From a virus: a DNA stretch of 39,113 bases. A program made the position numbers and the translations under genes. Position 1 is the first letter of the stretch, and each line of letters opens with the position of its first letter. The stretch lies in IMG/VR virus record IMGVR_UViG_3300033567_000006, positions 1 to 39,113 of that record; one strand, given 5' to 3'. Shown here in pieces: positions 6,828-34,253 of this stretch. The notes under the pieces were generated by a model. The model was not told the DNA's origin, did not search any database, and saw only the letters and a list, made by a program, of their open reading frames with translations.

Positions 6828-7124
6828 ATGACTAAATCAAAGTGGCTGCGGCGTATCATCGCCGCGGCCGCTATCCTAGCAACACTATGGATATTCAACG
6901 CAGTTACAGTAGCCGCTATGACCGCAGGAAGCGTGCCTACAGACACCAAGACCACTACATACACGATACACACAGGCGACACGCTGTGGACGATAGCAGC
7001 ACGGTTTGACGGGCGGGACGATACGCGACAGGTAATCAACTGGATGGAGGCCCGCAATGGGCTGCAGGATGGACGAGCGTTGCGAGTGGGAAGAAATTTG
7101 ATTGTGCCCATAGGAGGCCGATGA
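6828..7124 (+). CDS. YneA-like membrane-anchored LysM protein
   Basis: This 98-residue protein has one N-terminal membrane segment (about 10-32, RRIIAAAAILATLWIFNAV), a short linker and a single LysM domain. The domain starts TYTIHTGDTLWTIAARF and ends GRNLIVPI. This is the size and plan of YneA, the SOS-induced division suppressor of Bacilli, including the INWMEARNGL stretch. ATG 6828 has GAGGTGG six bases upstream. It overlaps the pentapeptide gene's first possible start by ATGA. It should sit in the membrane with LysM in the wall. Halting division during lytic growth is a plausible role but unproven. Confidence 0.7.
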   Translation: MTKSKWLRRIIAAAAILATLWIFNAVTVAAMTAGSVPTDTKTTTYTIHTGDTLWTIAARFDGRDDTRQVINWMEARNGLQDGRALRVGRNLIVPIGGR

Positions 7125-7126
7125 TT

Positions 7127-7915
7127 ATGGACGTTAAAAAATTGCAAGAAATGAACAAACACAAATCGTGGTTGCGTGGAGAAGAAGGCGGCGAGCGTGC
7201 CGACCTGCGCGGTGCCGACCTGACGCGTGCCAACCTGACGGATGCCAACCTAACGGATGCCAACCTAACGGATGCCGACCTGCGCGGTGCCAACCTGCGC
7301 GGTGCCAACCTGACGCGTGCCGACCTGCGCGGTGCCAACCTGACGCGTGCCGACCTGCGCGGTGCCGACCTGACGGATGCCGACCTGACGGATGCCGACC
7401 TGACGCGTGCCAACCTGACGGATGCCAACCTAACGGATGCCAACCTAACGGATGCCAACCTAACGGATGCCGACCTGCGCGGTGCCAACCTGACGCGTGC
7501 CGACCTGCGCGGTGCCAACCTGACGCGTGCCGACCTGCGCGGTGCCAACCTGACGCGTGCCGACCTGCGCGGTGCCAACCTGACGGATGCCAACCTGAAT
7601 GTCATCAAGCACGATCTGTGGTCTATCTTGCTACCTGCTCAAGCAGAGATAGATGGACTTGTTAATGCACTTAATGAAGGTCGCGTAGACGGCTCAACGT
7701 ATCAAGGTGAGTGCGCTTGTTTAGTGGGTACAATCGCGAATGTTCGCGGTGTGATGTATGACCAATTGGTTACTGTAAAGCCTGATGCAGAAAGACCAGC
7801 GGAACGATGGTTCCTTGGGATTCGTGAGGGTGATACGCCGGAGAATAGCGCGATTGCAAAGCTAACGATGGAGTGGATCGAGGAGTTTTTGAGTTATATA
7901 AGTACGAAGTCATGA
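7127..7915 (+). CDS. Pentapeptide-repeat protein
   Basis: This protein of about 262 residues contains 27 uninterrupted pentapeptides of the form A-(D/N)-L-(T/R)-(D/G/R), about residues 25-159. They should fold as a right-handed quadrilateral beta-helix of nearly seven coils. A non-repeat C-terminal domain of about 100 residues follows, with ECACLVGTIANVRG and ERWFLGIREGDTPENSA. The family includes DNA mimics such as MfpA and Qnr that bind gyrase, but most members are uncharacterised. TAGGAGG lies nine bases before ATG 7127; ATG 7121 is also possible and would overlap the LysM gene by ATGA. The neighbouring replication genes make a DNA-mimic role attractive but unproven. Confidence 0.85.
   Translation: MDVKKLQEMNKHKSWLRGEEGGERADLRGADLTRANLTDANLTDANLTDADLRGANLRGANLTRADLRGANLTRADLRGADLTDADLTDADLTRANLTDANLTDANLTDANLTDADLRGANLTRADLRGANLTRADLRGANLTRADLRGANLTDANLNVIKHDLWSILLPAQAEIDGLVNALNEGRVDGSTYQGECACLVGTIANVRGVMYDQLVTVKPDAERPAERWFLGIREGDTPENSAIAKLTMEWIEEFLSYISTKS
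7199..7603 (+). repeat. 27 tandem 15-bp units encoding the pentapeptides
   Basis: Units are near-identical at the DNA level, with a handful of variants such as GCCGACCTGCGCGGT, GCCAACCTGACGCGT and GCCAACCTAACGGAT. The CTA codon marks only one unit type. A block of about ten units starting at 7214 recurs from 7394 with one unit gained and one variant changed, indicating recent block duplication. Confidence 0.95.
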
Positions 7916-15263: not shown

Positions 15264-15797
15264 ATGATTTATTTTATTCAAGGAGAAAATGGTGGGCCAA
15301 TCAAGATTGGATACACAAAAAATTTAGTGAATCGTATGTTTGTACTACAAGAAGGAAATCCGTATAAATTAGTTGTGTTGGGTACTATGGATGGAACATT
15401 GGCGGCTGAACAACGATTACATACTAAATTCGAGAAGCACCGTTTTCGTAGCGAGTGGTTTGAAGACTGCGAAGAGATTAGAGAATTTATTAAACACTGC
15501 AATGAGTTTGATTATCGCACGCTACTTATGATACCTAAAAAACCGCATAAAAAGCCGAGATCGTTCGGTTACCGAGAATTTATAGACCGCTATCAAAACA
15601 CAATCAAAGTGAATCGATGGACCCGCGAGGAAGCAATAACAAAAACAATGGATGCGTTGTATCAAGAGTTGAGAACATTCGGTCACACAGAACACCGTTC
15701 GAAAAAATTAGCGTTCAACTATCGGTCAGCTATTATTGGGATGGTGGATTATTCGACATCGCAAACACAAATTTTACTCCCTATAGATTGCTTATAA
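15264..15797 (+). CDS. GIY-YIG nuclease domain protein (T5orf172/MUG113-like)
   Basis: This 177-residue protein has an N-terminal GIY-YIG-type domain of the T5orf172/MUG113 subgroup: MIYFIQGENGGPIKIGYTKN, then GTMDGTLAAEQRLHTKF and RSEWFED. The first catalytic motif is the YFI...KIGYT pair and the Arg lies in NLVNRM. The C-terminal half (about 90-177) is basic and unrecognised, perhaps for DNA binding. AAGGAGG precedes ATG 15264. The gene is clearly more AT-rich than the early operon, which suggests separate acquisition, possibly as a free-standing homing nuclease. Confidence 0.75.
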   Translation: MIYFIQGENGGPIKIGYTKNLVNRMFVLQEGNPYKLVVLGTMDGTLAAEQRLHTKFEKHRFRSEWFEDCEEIREFIKHCNEFDYRTLLMIPKKPHKKPRSFGYREFIDRYQNTIKVNRWTREEAITKTMDALYQELRTFGHTEHRSKKLAFNYRSAIIGMVDYSTSQTQILLPIDCL

Positions 15798-27654: not shown

Positions 27655-28008
27655 GTGACTAAGAAGCCGATTAGAGAATCTCTCGGCCTCGGTGAAACGA
27701 TGGAGTTGGCAAACGGGACGCTGTTACAATGCGTCCCCGCCACTCTCGCGAACCTTGAGGATGCGATGGGTCACTGGGCAACGTGGAAACAGTCGCAGTT
27801 GAGTGTTCAGGGCTGTTACATACCAGGCAACGAGGAAGCCAAGAATGCGTTCGAGGCGTTGCTTGTGATCGCGTGTGGGCGCAAATTCACGATTGAACAA
27901 TTGCGCACAATGATTGATATGTCAGATGGTGGCCGCGGGGTTATCAAATACATCGACCGATTTCTTGGTTTTGAGCCAAGAGAAGCCGGAGACAGCGAAG
28001 AAAGTTAA
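27655..28008 (+). CDS. Tail assembly chaperone (gpG-like)
   Basis: This 117-residue protein has the G-like placement between tube protein and tape measure. Helices such as PATLANLEDAMGHW and KNAFEALLVIACGRKFTIEQ fit the helical chaperones that coat the tape measure. GTG 27655 follows GGGGTGAT. Its 3' end overlaps the downstream T-frame by 95 nt, which implies a frameshifted G-T product. Confidence 0.75.
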   Translation: MTKKPIRESLGLGETMELANGTLLQCVPATLANLEDAMGHWATWKQSQLSVQGCYIPGNEEAKNAFEALLVIACGRKFTIEQLRTMIDMSDGGRGVIKYIDRFLGFEPREAGDSEES

Positions 28009-28228
28009 CGAGAACGCAAAAACAATGACGTGGCATCAAGTTGTCGCACGGTTCGCGGTGCACAGTATTACAGCACGCGAAGTATCCGAGATGACGCTGA
28101 TGCAAATGTACTCAGCACTCGACGAATTTGGCGAGGACATCAAGTTCCGCGTTCGTCTCGCCGGTGGTGAGGTTCCAGACGAGGACAAGGTAGCGACATT
28201 ACAGGACTTATTGGCATTAGGATCGTAG
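27914..28228 (+). CDS. T-frame of the tail chaperone, reached by +1 or -2 frameshift
   Basis: The reading frame overlapping the end of the G-like gene has no well-placed ribosome site, and its first ATG (28024) lacks one too, so it is probably made as a G-T fusion. The frame lies +1 relative to G, so the usual -1 slip of lambda would not reach it. TTTC in the G codons CGA-TTT-CTT (27958-27966) is one possible +1 slip point, because tRNA-Phe could re-pair on TTC. The T part contains TWHQVVARFAVHSITAREVS and MTLMQMYSALDEF, typical for tape-measure chaperones. Confidence 0.65.
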   Translation: MICQMVAAGLSNTSTDFLVLSQEKPETAKKVNENAKTMTWHQVVARFAVHSITAREVSEMTLMQMYSALDEFGEDIKFRVRLAGGEVPDEDKVATLQDLLALGS

Positions 28229-28242
28229 CGGAGGTGGTCGAA

Positions 28243-28338
28243 ATGGCTGATTTACATGAAAGAATCTCCATTGATATTGAACCAGCGTTAGAGGCATTAT
28301 CCGAACTCAAGAAAGCCTTGGACGATGTTCAAGCGTAA
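28243..28338 (+). pseudogene. Remnant of a tape-measure N-terminus (31 codons)
   Basis: An excellent site (CGGAGGTGG) and ATG 28243 open a 31-residue frame, where a tape-measure gene would be expected to begin. Its SIDIEPALEALSELKKALDD aligns with SLNVDPALAELQKLKTALDD near the start of the intact tape measure; about half of 24 compared residues are identical. It stops before the inserted cassette, so it looks like the displaced 5' end of an older tape-measure gene. Confidence 0.65.
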
Positions 28339-28408
28339 AGGACAAGCGGAGGATTGCCCCTCTGCCTGAATCGTAAAAAATATTTTCGATTGAGTCAGAT
28401 GGACAAGT

Positions 28409-28435
28409 TTGGACAAAGGTAGGATGTGGTAGAAT
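28409..28435 (+). promoter_or_regulatory. Putative independent promoter of the inserted cassette
   Basis: TTGGAC (28409-28414) and TAGAAT (28430-28435) are 15 bp apart. The short spacer is offset by an extended -10 (TGG directly before TAGAAT). Transcription would begin about 14 bp before the nuclease gene's first GTG, allowing expression from the silent prophage. Confidence 0.55.
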
Positions 28436-28455
28436 ATCTTCACAATGTCTGATAC

Positions 28456-29154
28456 GTGGAGGTGTTCGTCATTGGTGGCTTTCTATTGCTAATACTCGTG
28501 CCAATCACCCTTATGGCGTTCGGCATGCCTGGTTGGCTCGTTGTCACATTGTTCTCTCTTATCGGCGTCACAGGAGCGACGGTGAGCGTTGTCAGTGTAT
28601 ATGACCATCGTCGTTCCACTCGTCGCAATTACGAGTTCAACGCACGCGTGGGTGAGTTTGCGCCGACTGAGCAAGAATTAGCAGAGATAACTGAATGTGA
28701 GCGGCAGGTCGAAGAGGAAGAGCAACAAAACGAAACTAAGACGCGCAAGAGTCCTTTCAACCCTTGGACGGAACCCGCGTTCTGGCCGCGCATGTTCGAG
28801 GAACAAATGGCAGAAATGTTCAGGCGACTGGGATACCGTGTTACCCTCACACCATTTCAAGGGGATCATGGTATAGACCTGAAAATCATCAACCCGACTG
28901 AATTCGCCATCGTCCAGTGTAAGCGGTACGCACAACACAACAAAGTGGGCGAGGAATATGTACGGGAGTTTTTCGGATGCATGCAACACGAATCAGCAGA
29001 CATCGGGTACATGATCACAACATCGGATTTCACAGAGAATGCGTACAAGTGGGCGAAAGGTAAGCGGATCGTGTTGATAAACGAGGAATGGTTGCGAGAT
29101 ATGCTAAGAGAAACAGAGCATCTTGCACAGGTTGGGGGCGTGGAAGTTGTTTGA
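28456..29154 (+). CDS. Membrane-anchored Mrr-type restriction endonuclease-like protein
   Basis: Two N-terminal membrane helices (about 3-22 and 26-48) are followed by RRSTRR, placing the rest in the cytoplasm by the positive-inside rule. An acidic helical linker (about 60-100) leads to an Mrr_cat-type PD-(D/E)xK nuclease. The motifs are QGDHGIDL (Asp141) and IVQCKRYAQ (Gln154, Lys156), then VREFFGCMQHESADIGYM and ITTSDFTENA. Mrr-type enzymes cut foreign or modified DNA. Start choice is unusual: GTG 28456 has no site, whereas GGAGGTG (28458-28464) is well placed only for an ATT at 28471. It overlaps the lipoprotein gene by 8 nt. Its autonomous promoter and odd location suggest superinfection exclusion. 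Confidence 0.82.
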   Translation: MEVFVIGGFLLLILVPITLMAFGMPGWLVVTLFSLIGVTGATVSVVSVYDHRRSTRRNYEFNARVGEFAPTEQELAEITECERQVEEEEQQNETKTRKSPFNPWTEPAFWPRMFEEQMAEMFRRLGYRVTLTPFQGDHGIDLKIINPTEFAIVQCKRYAQHNKVGEEYVREFFGCMQHESADIGYMITTSDFTENAYKWAKGKRIVLINEEWLRDMLRETEHLAQVGGVEVV

Positions 29155-29680
29155 TGCCAAAAGGTTGTTTATCGCTCCGGTGTTACTGGTGATGATGTTA
29201 TCGGGTTGTGGGCAAAATTCAAACACAGCCACAAACAAACCGGATTTCTCGAACGCGGATCCAGTGAATACAACGAAACAGGTTGATGCAACAACATTCC
29301 TCGCGACGATTCAACCGTATGTGGATCAGTATCAAGGGATTGTGAAACAGTATCAAACCATCATGGCCAAAGAATCAAAAAACGAATATTCATCATCCGC
29401 GATAATCAGTCAAATGGGCAACATCGGGATTGAACTTGAACACATTCAACTCGGTCTCGCGGCGACAACGATACCTGATGACATGCAAGTATATTCGCAA
29501 CAATTCATGCAAGCAGTAGCCGACTTGAGTAGTTCCGAGCAAGACATGGAACAAGCGGCTGTCGATTCCGTTTCGGGTAGTTCATCGCCCGATGTGCAAC
29601 ACGCCAACGATTTATACAAACAATCGCTGTCAGATATGATTCAATTCATCACGAGCGAGAAAACACTCGCAAGCCAATGA
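29147..29680 (+). CDS. Prophage lipoprotein
   Basis: This protein of about 177 residues has a short lipoprotein signal (Lys5-Arg6, hydrophobic 7-18) and lipobox LSGCG, with Cys21 as the probable lipid anchor. A polar Asn/Thr linker and a helical, Gln/Ser-rich domain follow (about 45-177, VDQYQGIVKQYQTIMAKES). TTG 29147 is taken because it overlaps the nuclease stop (29152-29154); TTG 29123 would give a longer leader. Phage lipoproteins such as Ltp of TP-J34 block entry of related phage DNA by acting on the incoming tape measure. The present protein shows no recognised similarity to Ltp, so that role is only a hypothesis. Confidence 0.8.
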   Translation: MFDAKRLFIAPVLLVMMLSGCGQNSNTATNKPDFSNADPVNTTKQVDATTFLATIQPYVDQYQGIVKQYQTIMAKESKNEYSSSAIISQMGNIGIELEHIQLGLAATTIPDDMQVYSQQFMQAVADLSSSEQDMEQAAVDSVSGSSSPDVQHANDLYKQSLSDMIQFITSEKTLASQ

Positions 29681-29699
29681 AATAATATTCGCAATCATC

Positions 29700-29721
29700 G
29701 AGGCCCTTCGGGGCCTTTTTT
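29700..29721 (+). terminator. UUCG-tetraloop terminator closing the cassette
   Basis: AGGCCC-TTCG-GGGCCT forms a perfect 6-bp stem capped by the very stable UUCG loop, followed by TTTTTTATTT. It lies inside the late operon between the lipoprotein and tape measure, so late transcription must pass it. Confidence 0.9.
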
Positions 29722-29738
29722 ATTTGGGGGTGTAAGTT

Positions 29739-32700
29739 GTGAGTATAAACGATCCCAACGCAGTAAACAAAGTCGCGGCGAATATCAGTCTGAATGTTGA
29801 TCCAGCGTTAGCTGAGTTACAGAAACTAAAGACAGCACTCGACGATACACTAGGCAGTAGTTCGGTTGGCACTCGTGGCGCACGTTCAAGCGGGGATCAA
29901 TTCCTAGCAGGCGCAGATGGTGCGATTCGTACGGTTCGACAACAAATCCAAGAATTAGAGTTGCAATTCAAGGAAGGCTCACTCGCGGCACAGGACTTAT
30001 ACGACAAACTCGTATCGTTACGGACCGCCTATTCCAATGCATTTGATACAACAACTTCGAACGGATTGATTAACGACACAGCCTTACGCAAGGCTATTGT
30101 GAGCGCGGAAAGCCAGATATCGAAGTATCAAGACTTCCAAATGAATGGCGCCACGGCGGTAGAAAGCAGACAGGAAGAATTAACGGCGCAAGAGTTGCAA
30201 AAATACAATGAATCCGTAGATGCAAAGGTTAAGCAAGTAAAACTACTGCACGACCTGCAAATGCAGTCTGCACAGGACTCACTTGACCAACTGAGCGTGA
30301 TATATGTTGAAGATGCAGACCGATTCGCGGCAGATGTGGATAAGAAAACGCAGATGCTCAAAACGATGTACACCTACGAGAAGGAAGCCGCCGCACAAAG
30401 CGCAGCCGCGATGAATCCGGTGTCTGGATCAAGCGCAAGCAAATCATCTGGATCGAGTCACTACAACGGCGTCGTCGGTATCACAGGCATGGCGACGATG
30501 ATGGCTGAGTTTACCGGACTCTCAATGCTCATGCAGAACGTGCAAGAGGGACTTGTCGGAATATCGAAACAGCAACAAGGACTAGAACAGGTGTTCGGGA
30601 ACAGTGTGCAAGGACAGCAACAACTCAACCAAGTTACCAACGAATTTATCGACATTGCGAAGCAGTATGGCACATCCGTACAAGACGTACTAGATGCCGG
30701 TAAACAATGGGGTCGTCAATACAAAGATGTGAACACCGCACTCACGCTCACACGCAACTCCACGCTACTCGCCATCGTCGATAATCTGCAAATGGCCGAT
30801 GCGAACAAGGCTGTTGAGGCGACGATGAACGCAATGGGCATGGCTGCGACGAACCAGGCATCTGCAATGACGAACAGCATGCGCATTGTCGATAGTTGGT
30901 CAGCACTTGCGCACGAAGCGTCCGTGTCTGCAAACGACCTCGCAGCAGGCGTTGAACGGTCCGCGGGTGCCGCGAGGCAAGCGGGCCTATCCATCGACCA
31001 ACTAAACGCACTGATTGCCGCAGGCGTACGGAATACGGGTCTGTCGGGTGATAATGTCGGGAACATGTGGAAGTCTGTTCTCGCGAGTATATCCGCCGGT
31101 ACGCCGAAAGTACAAAAGGCGTTCCAAGAACTCGGTATCTCGCTCACGGAAACAGGTGCTAACGGACAGAAAGTCATGAAGCCGGTGTATCAGGTCATTC
31201 TTGACCTATCGACCGCTGCACAGCATGCTACGGCGAGTCAGACGCAATACTTCGAGGCGATTGCCGGTGGCAAATACCAATACTCGAAACTAATGAGTGC
31301 CATCAGCGATACAAAGACCATTCAGGACGATTACAACAAGTCGCTGAACTCGACAGGAAAAGCGAATCAATATGCAACCGAGCAAATGCACACTTTGTCC
31401 GCTGAACTCATACGGCTGAAAGATAGCATTCAGCAATTGGCGTACAATGCGGGATCAGGTGGTCTTGGGGATGTCTTGACAGGACTTGTGACCCATATCG
31501 CAGACCTCGTGAACGGACTGCAAAAGTTGCCGGCATCTGTTGACTGGACAGCAGCGGGATTCGTCGGCTTGTTGTTAACAGGAAAAGCGCTCACGAGTAT
31601 GTTCAACACAGCTAAATCCGCAGTAACGGGTATCTATAGCGGGTTTAACTTCTTCCGAGAAGCGATTGCATCAACGAGCGGGGCAATCGTCAATATGACC
31701 GGCGCATCCGCCGCGCTTACAGCAGACCTAAACGCCAAAGTAATCGCCACCGAAGCGGATGTTGCGGCAAATGAAGCGGAAGTTGTGAGCGTGGAAGAAG
31801 CTACAGTTGCACTAGAAGCAGAGGGCGCGGCGGCTGATGTCGCATCGACTTCGTTTTTCACGCTTGATGCAGCGATGGCGGGCGCGACACTTGGATTGTC
31901 TATTCTCCTCCCAATCCTCGCTGTGGTTGTCATGAATATGGGTAAACAAAAGGATGCCGCGATAGGTGCAACGCAGTCTGCACAGCAATTAACGCAAGCC
32001 ATACAAGCACAGACACAAGCTGATATGCAAGCGGCGCAACAGACAGAAACGAACGTTGGTTCACTGCAACAACTGAAACAGCAGTATGTGGATACACTCA
32101 CCGCCATAAACAACGCCAAAGCAGGATCGAGCGCTTATCAACAGGCGCAAGCGGAGCTCATTACCATCCACCAACAACTCGCGAAAGTGGTCGGGGAAGC
32201 AGCGGCCGCCGAGATACTTGGATCAAAAAACATAGCACAAGCGTTCAACGATGAAGCGTCGGCGATGATAAAGGCGCAGATTGTTGAGTTGCAAGCCAAA
32301 CAAGCACTTGCGGATGGTGAGTTTGCGTTGACAACGACAGTCATCGAGCAAACATCCAAGAGAATCGAAGCGTATCAAACGGAAGCAGATGCAATCGCGG
32401 CAACTCAGTCCAAGATAAACTCTGGTCCATTGGCGGGCCGTTTCGGGGTTTCTCCGAACGGAAGTGCGCTCGATGGTTCAAACCAATCTGGCGCGTATTT
32501 GTCGGGGAATGAAAACAGCATCCTGCGTAATATGCAGCTTAAAAACAGGCAAATCCAACAAAGCATCATTAACCAACAAGGATCAGGCGCAGACCCATAC
32601 CAACTAGAGATTGATAAACTAAAATCCGCACTGAACGACCCGAATCCAGGCTCTAGCTTTGGTAACATCCCCGGAATTTCAAGCGGGGGCGCAGCCGGAA

Positions 32701-34253
32701 CAAGCGCATCCAAGGGTTCAGGGGCATCCGCCTACAAAGCACCATTCCAAGACCTTGCGCAAAACGACGATCAAGCCATGAAGGTGTACGATGACCGCAT
32801 CAAAGCGATAGCCGCATCTGTTAGTGCATTTTCGGACGCCATGAAGAATGCGGATGCCGCGCTGAAAGCCAACAACACAGACACCACAGCCGCAGCGCAA
32901 CTCGTCAAAGGTTACAACGGTGAAGTCGCGTCGTTGAAATCGCAGATTTCCGCTTACAACGCCGAGAGCGCGAAAGTGAATCAACTCCTGCCGCAAGTGG
33001 AGAGGGACATTAAAAACGTCAACGCACAGTTCGCGGCGGGCACGATAACAGACCAAGAACACCGCGATGCTCTATCTACACTGAATGCGGAGTATGACCG
33101 CTTAAAACAGAAGCTAGATGACAATGCAAAGGCTGTTATTGCAGACAACCAAGCAATCGCCACATCGACACAAACCATCACATCCGAAATCACAAGTATG
33201 CTCCAGACCGCCTACCAAGACCAACAGTCGATGCAAGATGATGCACTCACCAACACGTATCAACCGCAGATTGACGCGCTGAACGCACAAAAGACCGCGA
33301 TTGACGGCGTGATATCATCCCTGCAAGCGCAGTGGTCAGCGCAGGATGCCGTCAATCAACTCTCCGACCTCCAGAATCAATTGTTGGCGGTGCAGGCGGA
33401 TAAACGATTCGAGATTGTCGGATTAGATGGCAAGTTGAGTTACACCTACGACACCGCGAAAGCCACAGACTTGCAAAAGCAAATCGCGGATCAGCAAACG
33501 AAGATGGCACACGACGCGCAGATTGCACAGTTGAACGACCAAAAGACCGCGCTCGATGCGGAAATCAAGAATTTGCAGGATGCCTACAACGAGAAGAAAA
33601 AGCAACTCGACGATTACTGGAAGTGGAAGTTATCTACCGACCAAATCAACCAAGATGCCGATAACCTCATCCTGAAAGATGGTCTCACAGGCGCGCTCAG
33701 CTACGTGCAGACGTATACCACACAGATGATCGATAAGTACAATGCGTTGCAGGCGGCGGCAGCAGCGGCGGGTCAAGGGATTGCGGCAGGTCTCGGCGGT
33801 TCCGGTGTATCAGCGGGTGCTGGTAGTGGTACTTCGGCTGGCGCATCATCCACCGGAAAAACATATTCGATGGCGGACAAAAATGGTCACGTTGACACGG
33901 GCACGAGTATAAACGCGCTGGTCAATCAGCACGGAGGACAGTGGGAATATGGCAAGTGGGTAAATGGTCACTATGACAGCAGTGGCCAATTCCTGCATAT
34001 GTCCACAGGCGGAGAGGTTCCACTCAACATGGGCACGCCGAACATGGACTCCGTACCCGCTATGCTGACACCTGGCGAAATTGTCGTGCCGAGTTGGGAT
34101 CATCTGCTACAAGGGATGAAACAAGTCAGCAATTCAGCGTCCACCACAATCCATGTCAGCGGCAACCTTGAGTTCCCGAATATTAAGGGGGCGGGTGACG
34201 CAGAGGCGTTCCTCGCTGACCTCACTGAAATGGTCGGCGTACATCGCGTATAA
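29739..34253 (+). CDS. Tail tape measure protein
   Basis: This 1504-residue protein is by far the longest here and sets tail length. Residues about 270-620 form the conserved tape-measure region (VLDAGKQWGRQYKDVNTALT, NLAAG-like NDLAAGVERSAGAARQAGLS). Hydrophobic segments occur at about 610-630 and 710-735 (LGLSILLPILAVVVMNMG) and may insert in the host membrane during ejection. Long coiled-coil regions (about 1000-1310) follow, and the C-terminus has the classic DSVPAMLTPGEIVVPS. GTG 29739 has GGGGGTG six bases upstream. Its first 40 residues resemble the 31-codon remnant upstream of the cassette. Confidence 0.95.
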   Translation: MSINDPNAVNKVAANISLNVDPALAELQKLKTALDDTLGSSSVGTRGARSSGDQFLAGADGAIRTVRQQIQELELQFKEGSLAAQDLYDKLVSLRTAYSNAFDTTTSNGLINDTALRKAIVSAESQISKYQDFQMNGATAVESRQEELTAQELQKYNESVDAKVKQVKLLHDLQMQSAQDSLDQLSVIYVEDADRFAADVDKKTQMLKTMYTYEKEAAAQSAAAMNPVSGSSASKSSGSSHYNGVVGITGMATMMAEFTGLSMLMQNVQEGLVGISKQQQGLEQVFGNSVQGQQQLNQVTNEFIDIAKQYGTSVQDVLDAGKQWGRQYKDVNTALTLTRNSTLLAIVDNLQMADANKAVEATMNAMGMAATNQASAMTNSMRIVDSWSALAHEASVSANDLAAGVERSAGAARQAGLSIDQLNALIAAGVRNTGLSGDNVGNMWKSVLASISAGTPKVQKAFQELGISLTETGANGQKVMKPVYQVILDLSTAAQHATASQTQYFEAIAGGKYQYSKLMSAISDTKTIQDDYNKSLNSTGKANQYATEQMHTLSAELIRLKDSIQQLAYNAGSGGLGDVLTGLVTHIADLVNGLQKLPASVDWTAAGFVGLLLTGKALTSMFNTAKSAVTGIYSGFNFFREAIASTSGAIVNMTGASAALTADLNAKVIATEADVAANEAEVVSVEEATVALEAEGAAADVASTSFFTLDAAMAGATLGLSILLPILAVVVMNMGKQKDAAIGATQSAQQLTQAIQAQTQADMQAAQQTETNVGSLQQLKQQYVDTLTAINNAKAGSSAYQQAQAELITIHQQLAKVVGEAAAAEILGSKNIAQAFNDEASAMIKAQIVELQAKQALADGEFALTTTVIEQTSKRIEAYQTEADAIAATQSKINSGPLAGRFGVSPNGSALDGSNQSGAYLSGNENSILRNMQLKNRQIQQSIINQQGSGADPYQLEIDKLKSALNDPNPGSSFGNIPGISSGGAAGTSASKGSGASAYKAPFQDLAQNDDQAMKVYDDRIKAIAASVSAFSDAMKNADAALKANNTDTTAAAQLVKGYNGEVASLKSQISAYNAESAKVNQLLPQVERDIKNVNAQFAAGTITDQEHRDALSTLNAEYDRLKQKLDDNAKAVIADNQAIATSTQTITSEITSMLQTAYQDQQSMQDDALTNTYQPQIDALNAQKTAIDGVISSLQAQWSAQDAVNQLSDLQNQLLAVQADKRFEIVGLDGKLSYTYDTAKATDLQKQIADQQTKMAHDAQIAQLNDQKTALDAEIKNLQDAYNEKKKQLDDYWKWKLSTDQINQDADNLILKDGLTGALSYVQTYTTQMIDKYNALQAAAAAAGQGIAAGLGGSGVSAGAGSGTSAGASSTGKTYSMADKNGHVDTGTSINALVNQHGGQWEYGKWVNGHYDSSGQFLHMSTGGEVPLNMGTPNMDSVPAMLTPGEIVVPSWDHLLQGMKQVSNSASTTIHVSGNLEFPNIKGAGDAEAFLADLTEMVGVHRV

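Follow-up and report, generated by a model that had tools for sequence, protein, structure and literature searches.

The window, i.e. the whole stretch of DNA analysed, is a 39.1-kb viral record (39,113 nt; IMG/VR IMGVR_UViG_3300033567_000006) from a temperate siphophage. The phage is called temperate because it encodes a tyrosine integrase and a CI-like repressor; both genes are on the minus strand, together with that of an IrrE-like protein. A tRNA is found at 51-122. The other genes are those of a Rha/ANT antirepressor, Gam, replication proteins and a C5 methylase, then the terminase and portal genes and the tail genes. Elsewhere in the same phage, a MUG113/T5orf172 protein (GIY-YIG type; 15264-15797) is encoded, which has no DUF4041 match. 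Since the closest relatives of the phage belong to the Alicyclobacillaceae, its host, a monoderm, is probably an Alicyclobacillus-type bacterium.

A cassette separates the frameshifted tail assembly chaperone from the tape measure protein (TMP) gene. Behind a TMP-like stub at its left edge, it comprises, in this order, a leader/promoter, a gene for a two-TM Mrr_cat protein, a lipoprotein gene that overlaps the latter and a terminator with a UUCG loop. These features and the flanking genes are all on the plus strand. On the left, chaperone G (27655..28008) is 57% identical to the chaperone ORFs present at the same position in A. contaminans and G008, two relatives presented below. It is overlapped by an ORF (27914..28228) that presumably provides the GT extension via a frameshift and that has counterparts at L010:3034-3237 and L018:425-694. 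On the right lies an intact TMP gene (29739..34253; 1504 aa; PhageMin_Tail E 1.1e-20; PHROG tape measure). A preliminary description of the locus had placed the same elements here, with an intact TMP downstream, and it was accurate: every one of them is present.

Genes and signals of the cassette

The Mrr gene (28456..29154) encodes a protein of the PD-(D/E)XK type matching Pfam Mrr_cat at E 2.5e-27. All motif residues are retained, as GID139-141 and QCK154-156 (Asp141/Gln154/Lys156). Two hydrophobic segments are found at the N-terminus, TM1 by hydropathy and TM2 as read from the sequence, and the second is followed by a positive stretch, HRRSTRR; the predicted topology leaves the nuclease domain in the cytoplasm. 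The exact start is uncertain because a ribosome site is missing before GTG 28456. An AlphaFold model of this protein was too poor for use (pLDDT 46). The association of TM segments with Mrr_cat is common among chromosomal proteins of the Bacillota. Another Alicyclobacillaceae genome has, on its chromosome, a lipoprotein gene 14 nt upstream of one encoding a TM-Mrr_cat protein (L077:4593-6810). A 59%-identical lipoprotein in G016 has no adjoining Mrr; as the pairing is not conserved, it was left out of the support for the cassette.

The lipoprotein gene (29147..29680; ORF listed from 29123) most likely starts at TTG 29147 and thus overlaps the Mrr stop. Its signal peptide and lipobox cysteine, FDAKRLFIAPVLLVMMLSGC, were read from the sequence; the LSGC lipobox is also present in the lipoprotein of the A. 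contaminans slot, to which the protein is 25% identical (E 8e-11). A Ser/Thr/Asn-rich linker is followed by a predicted four-helix bundle (helices 47-76, 82-104, 110-142 and 149-175), from a model built on two sequences and of moderate confidence (mean pLDDT 68). Up to E 1, no relative turned up among 50,697 phage records, and a profile run on 399 Bacilli genomes matched only A. contaminans strongly. There was no Ltp model among the Pfam or NCBIfam matches, no match by sequence to solved structures and no confident fold match for the model. By these searches, the lipoprotein belongs to no known family.

The leader/promoter (28340..28435) aligns with the leaders of A. contaminans and G008. It contains ATTGCCCCTCTGC (28353-28365), an inverted repeat (28369-28391), TGGACAAGTTT and an extended -10, TGGTAGAAT, which reads TGG-TAGAAT (28427-28435). 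The standard -35 is absent at 16-18 nt spacing, which is why a consensus promoter scan makes no call at the leader. The extended -10 is nevertheless supported by the conservation of this non-coding block in the two relatives. The three leaders have in common ATTGCCCCTNTGC, an inverted repeat, GAC.AGT.T and then the -10 region, the sequence of the inverted repeat differing from phage to phage. The local score of the window leader is 36 with A. contaminans (shuffle maximum 19.5; 1000 shuffles) and 20.5 with G008 (shuffle maximum 20). A search of 59 genomes from the order found this leader pattern only in the A. contaminans and G008 prophages (G001, G008). Two copies of the motif AWTCGTAAM adjoin the repressor promoter region (2403-2411 and 2462-2470) and a third is in the leader (28369-28377). 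This is within chance, 8/100 shuffles matching as often, and gives a mere hint of repressor control.

On the other side, an intrinsic terminator with a UUCG loop, GAGGCCC-UUCG-GGGCCUU, is followed by a T-run (29700..29717; -13.1 kcal/mol, z -2.9). Terminators are found at the equivalent place in L010, L018 and L008. We infer that a promoter of its own drives the cassette in the lysogen. Thus the two-TM Mrr_cat protein, the overlapping lipoprotein gene, the extended -10 and the terminator of the preliminary description all hold, the topology being predicted and the -35 poor.

The chaperone-TMP slot in related prophages

Alicyclobacillus contaminans DSM 17975 (L010) and L009, a Bacilli MAG, were identified by profile searches based on the conserved block of TMP; the chromosome G008 (L018, L047) came from a family search. 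A first genome scan with another profile (A1) gave no match. Scans of viral contigs with single proteins (Mrr, TMP, TerL) gave almost nothing; L002, which came from one of them, shows no relationship along the greater part of its sequence. The comparison rests on few relatives.

In the A. contaminans and G008 prophages, both of Alicyclobacillaceae, this slot is filled by a homologous cassette with a common leader; the chaperone-TMP gap is 1311-1794 nt in these two and in the window. It is only 4-95 nt in L004, L006, L007 and L009; L006, L007, L009 and phage KKP_3916 all have 95 nt or less. In eight further prophages (L086-L089, L092-L095) the last small tail gene is directly before the TMP gene; as L086-L089 are mutually close and L093/L094 likewise, these eight count as about four, hence about eight distinct empty slots with the first four. 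By its position in the slot, its absence from these relatives and its terminator, the cassette is a genuine moron, as had been proposed beforehand. Its composition is little different from that of the structural genes and a foreign origin is not evident from it.

The content of the slot varies. In A. contaminans, an Mrr_cat-like ORF is followed by an overlapping lipoprotein gene. This Mrr protein still matches Mrr_cat (E 1.8e-12), but the TM segments are lost and it has GFQ for GID and RCK for QCK. In G008, a 169-aa protein precedes a two-TM Mrr with an intact motif, 61% identical to the window protein over the Mrr domain, then a terminator and the TMP, without any lipoprotein. The 169-aa partner has a TM segment at its N-terminus and a stretch rich in glycine, and judged by eye it is possibly PH-like. 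The preliminary description saw a two-component system in the Mrr and lipoprotein genes. An obligate pair is not supported: G008 has the TM-Mrr with another membrane protein in place of the lipoprotein, and A. contaminans keeps the lipoprotein beside an Mrr partner lacking the TM helices and the catalytic Asp and Gln. The two genes are separable, which weakens the obligate model, and the losses in A. contaminans indicate that nuclease activity is not under universal selection.

Other inserts were observed around this position. In a second, near-identical G008 prophage, a transposase-like ORF (IS1380-like by eye) is directly after the slot leader (L053:2361-3333). Between chaperone and TMP, L005 encodes a zinc-ribbon protein with two TM segments (6980-7297, minus strand), and its gene is accompanied by a terminator-like hairpin. 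L008 (1783-3690) has, between a tyrosine recombinase gene and the TMP gene, genes for a zinc-ribbon protein (CapR/DUF723) and for a lone lipoprotein, the latter with a promoter-like sequence and a terminator; its homology to the window lipoprotein was not demonstrable by a shuffle test. All filled slots encode at least one product that looks membrane-bound or exported. Independent cases are few (the cassette group, L005, L008 and HK97), so this is a pattern to test and no rule. Tyrosine recombinase genes lie shortly upstream of TMP in SPbeta-like tail clusters (L090, L091, L008:545-1555, L004:3169-4123, and also KKP_3916). Group I introns (Rfam RF00028) interrupt two TMP genes, at L061:5771-6004 (minus strand) in the A. 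contaminans prophage and at L008:5381-5606 (plus strand) in IMGVR_UViG_3300037467_000853; both are near the conserved PhageMin_Tail block.

The stub (28243..28338; 31 codons) is preceded by GGAGG. Its residues 8-28 align to residues 16-36 of the TMP of the same phage, with 12/21 identical, for a BLOSUM62 score of 62 (shuffle mean 20, maximum 48; 5000 shuffles), which upholds the resemblance to the TMP N-terminus pointed out previously. At the DNA level, an imperfect direct repeat joins the stub (left copy, 28274..28326) to TMP codons (right copy, 29794..29846), in frame and with 38/53 nt identical, a value that 0/1000 shuffles equal. With TMPs of relatives the stub scores just 24-30, so it is closest to the TMP of its own phage and is, by this homology, a partial copy of its start. 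Similarity to TMP ends 3 codons short of the stop, and similarity to the A. contaminans leader begins directly after the stub. No counterpart of the stub was seen in the relatives compared, cassette-bearing or cassette-free, and in particular no free-standing stub gene in the cassette-free ones, which supports a TMP-derived remnant. The simplest reading is that a truncated TMP start was left as the stub when a block made of leader, Mrr, lipoprotein, terminator and TMP recombined in. Alternatively the stub could be a small functional gene, e.g. a chaperone partner or a translational coupler, in keeping with its strong ribosome site and intact frame. Homology to its own TMP start, the abrupt passage from TMP-like to leader-like sequence and the lack of counterparts all speak against this idea, which we consider highly improbable. 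As the two copies are in one frame, recombination between them could delete the cassette and leave a readable TMP.

A proposed role at phage DNA entry

We propose, with about an even chance of being right (roughly 0.5), that the cassette protects the lysogen at the entry of phage DNA, the membrane Mrr cutting and the lipoprotein being an exterior accessory or a separate exclusion factor. In the lysogen, the cassette would be transcribed from its own promoter; the Mrr protein would be anchored in the cytoplasmic membrane by its two helices, with the nuclease domain inside, and would cut DNA arriving via the incoming tail or TMP channel. The chromosome would be spared because Mrr is tethered. 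The lipoprotein would be attached to that membrane from outside and may serve as an exclusion factor or a sensor, helpful and not obligatory. Recombination near the TMP 5' end would have brought in the cassette and left the 31-codon stub, and the in-frame repeat shared by stub and TMP is a possible route of its loss.

Several observations argue for exclusion at DNA entry: the Mrr_cat domain with its catalytic motif; cassettes occupying this slot in A. contaminans and in G008, their leader and terminator being conserved; the TM-Mrr of G008, intact despite a different partner; the slot being tight or empty in the other relatives; the HK97 gp15 slot and the SNIPE and Ltp precedents; the envelope-type inserts of L008 and L005; and the temperate nature of the phage. 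It is disfavoured by the degenerate Mrr of A. contaminans, by two genes that are not co-inherited, by the poor -35, by the ribosome site missing at the annotated Mrr start and by the frequency of TM-Mrr proteins in Bacillota chromosomes. A narrower version, which we hold as tentative and rather doubtful, makes the cassette a prophage-borne analogue of SNIPE with a different nuclease: tethered Mrr, helped by an exchangeable exterior or membrane partner, would cut the DNA of superinfecting siphophages as it threads through TMP, and the genetic linkage to the TMP gene of the same phage would reflect a specificity that co-evolves with TMP. If so, envelope exclusion morons would have a general hotspot at the chaperone-TMP junction, in phages of Gram-negative and Gram-positive bacteria.

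Exclusion could also be due to the lipoprotein alone, which would block the incoming TMP from outside in the manner of Ltp or Sie2009, the Mrr-like gene being a DNA-binding or regulatory passenger or being lost. The A. contaminans cassette, with a full lipoprotein beside a TM-less, catalytically degenerate Mrr, keeps this explanation alive; so do the lone lipoprotein of L008, with its own promoter-like sequence and terminator directly before TMP, and the Ltp precedent. We nevertheless find it unlikely, since G008 has an intact TM-Mrr and no lipoprotein, the window Mrr keeps every motif residue, and the lipoprotein has neither an Ltp model match nor a confident match to a solved structure. That the cassette is cargo of a selfish or decaying kind, with a lipoprotein and a restriction gene of the Mrr type acquired by chance and without selected function in the phage, would fit the free swapping of its content and the degenerate Mrr of A. 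contaminans; but with an Mrr domain 61% identical and its motif intact between window and G008, and a leader and terminator conserved in three prophages, this is quite improbable. Lastly, the cassette might serve the late programme of the phage itself (assembly, host DNA breakdown or lysis), its promoter being incidental, which would agree with its place within the late operon, its late direction and its composition. This too is very unlikely: about eight distinct related tails do without it, so assembly does not require it; a terminator stands between it and TMP; and it has a conserved leader with an inverted repeat in front of a variable content.

Comparison with known exclusion systems

For exclusion at DNA entry, the closest precedent by position is gp15 of coliphage HK97, whose record is annotated in the order chaperone (-1 frameshift), gp15 moron, putative terminator and TMP. 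According to PMC10883804, gp15 blocks DNA injection; whether an incoming phage is excluded depends on its tail/TMP genes, and hybrids with the HK022 tail tube and TMP genes escape. The cassette shares with gp15 the chaperone-TMP slot, the terminator after the moron and a membrane product. However HK97 has just one small membrane protein there, from a 189-bp gene, and no nuclease, whereas the window has a TM-Mrr and a lipoprotein, in a monoderm host.

SNIPE, a membrane nuclease that associates with TMP, cleaves phage DNA while it is being injected; its catalytic residue is required and SNIPE without TM is toxic (PMC13190303). The window Mrr resembles it by its predicted N-terminal membrane anchor and cytoplasmic nuclease domain. 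But SNIPE is of the DUF4041/GIY-YIG type and neither domain was found in the window Mrr protein, for which Pfam gives Mrr_cat-type domains only; moreover the window nuclease is prophage-borne and its second gene encodes a lipoprotein. By domain content, the cassette nuclease is an analogue of SNIPE and does not belong to it.

Ltp is a surface lipoprotein that targets TMP, and its gene is in the lysogeny module (PMC3952083). Like Ltp and Sie2009, the window lipoprotein is prophage-encoded and likely sits on the outside of the membrane in a Gram-positive cell. By its location in the chaperone-TMP slot, the absence of an Ltp model match and its predicted four-helix bundle, it is not Ltp. In mEpimmI phages, lipoprotein exclusion genes have been reported within a structural cluster (PMC11893012). 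The link to exclusion factors acting on tape measures made in the preliminary description is supported.

The Mrr_cat domain itself is shared with type IV Mrr restriction enzymes and with chromosomal TM-Mrr proteins (PADLOC mREase_IV, PDC-S02, ZorD). Mrr of E. coli has an N-terminal target-recognition domain; the window Mrr has none and is located in a phage late operon.

The slot is thus already known from HK97 and the cargo is new, combining the HK97 position and a SNIPE-like layout with another nuclease. If the proposal is right, a membrane nuclease has been placed in this exclusion slot, and it becomes testable whether exclusion factors adjoin the TMP gene because they act on tape measures. 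For this, the related cassettes offer natural separation-of-function variants, an intact Mrr without lipoprotein and a lipoprotein with a degenerate Mrr.
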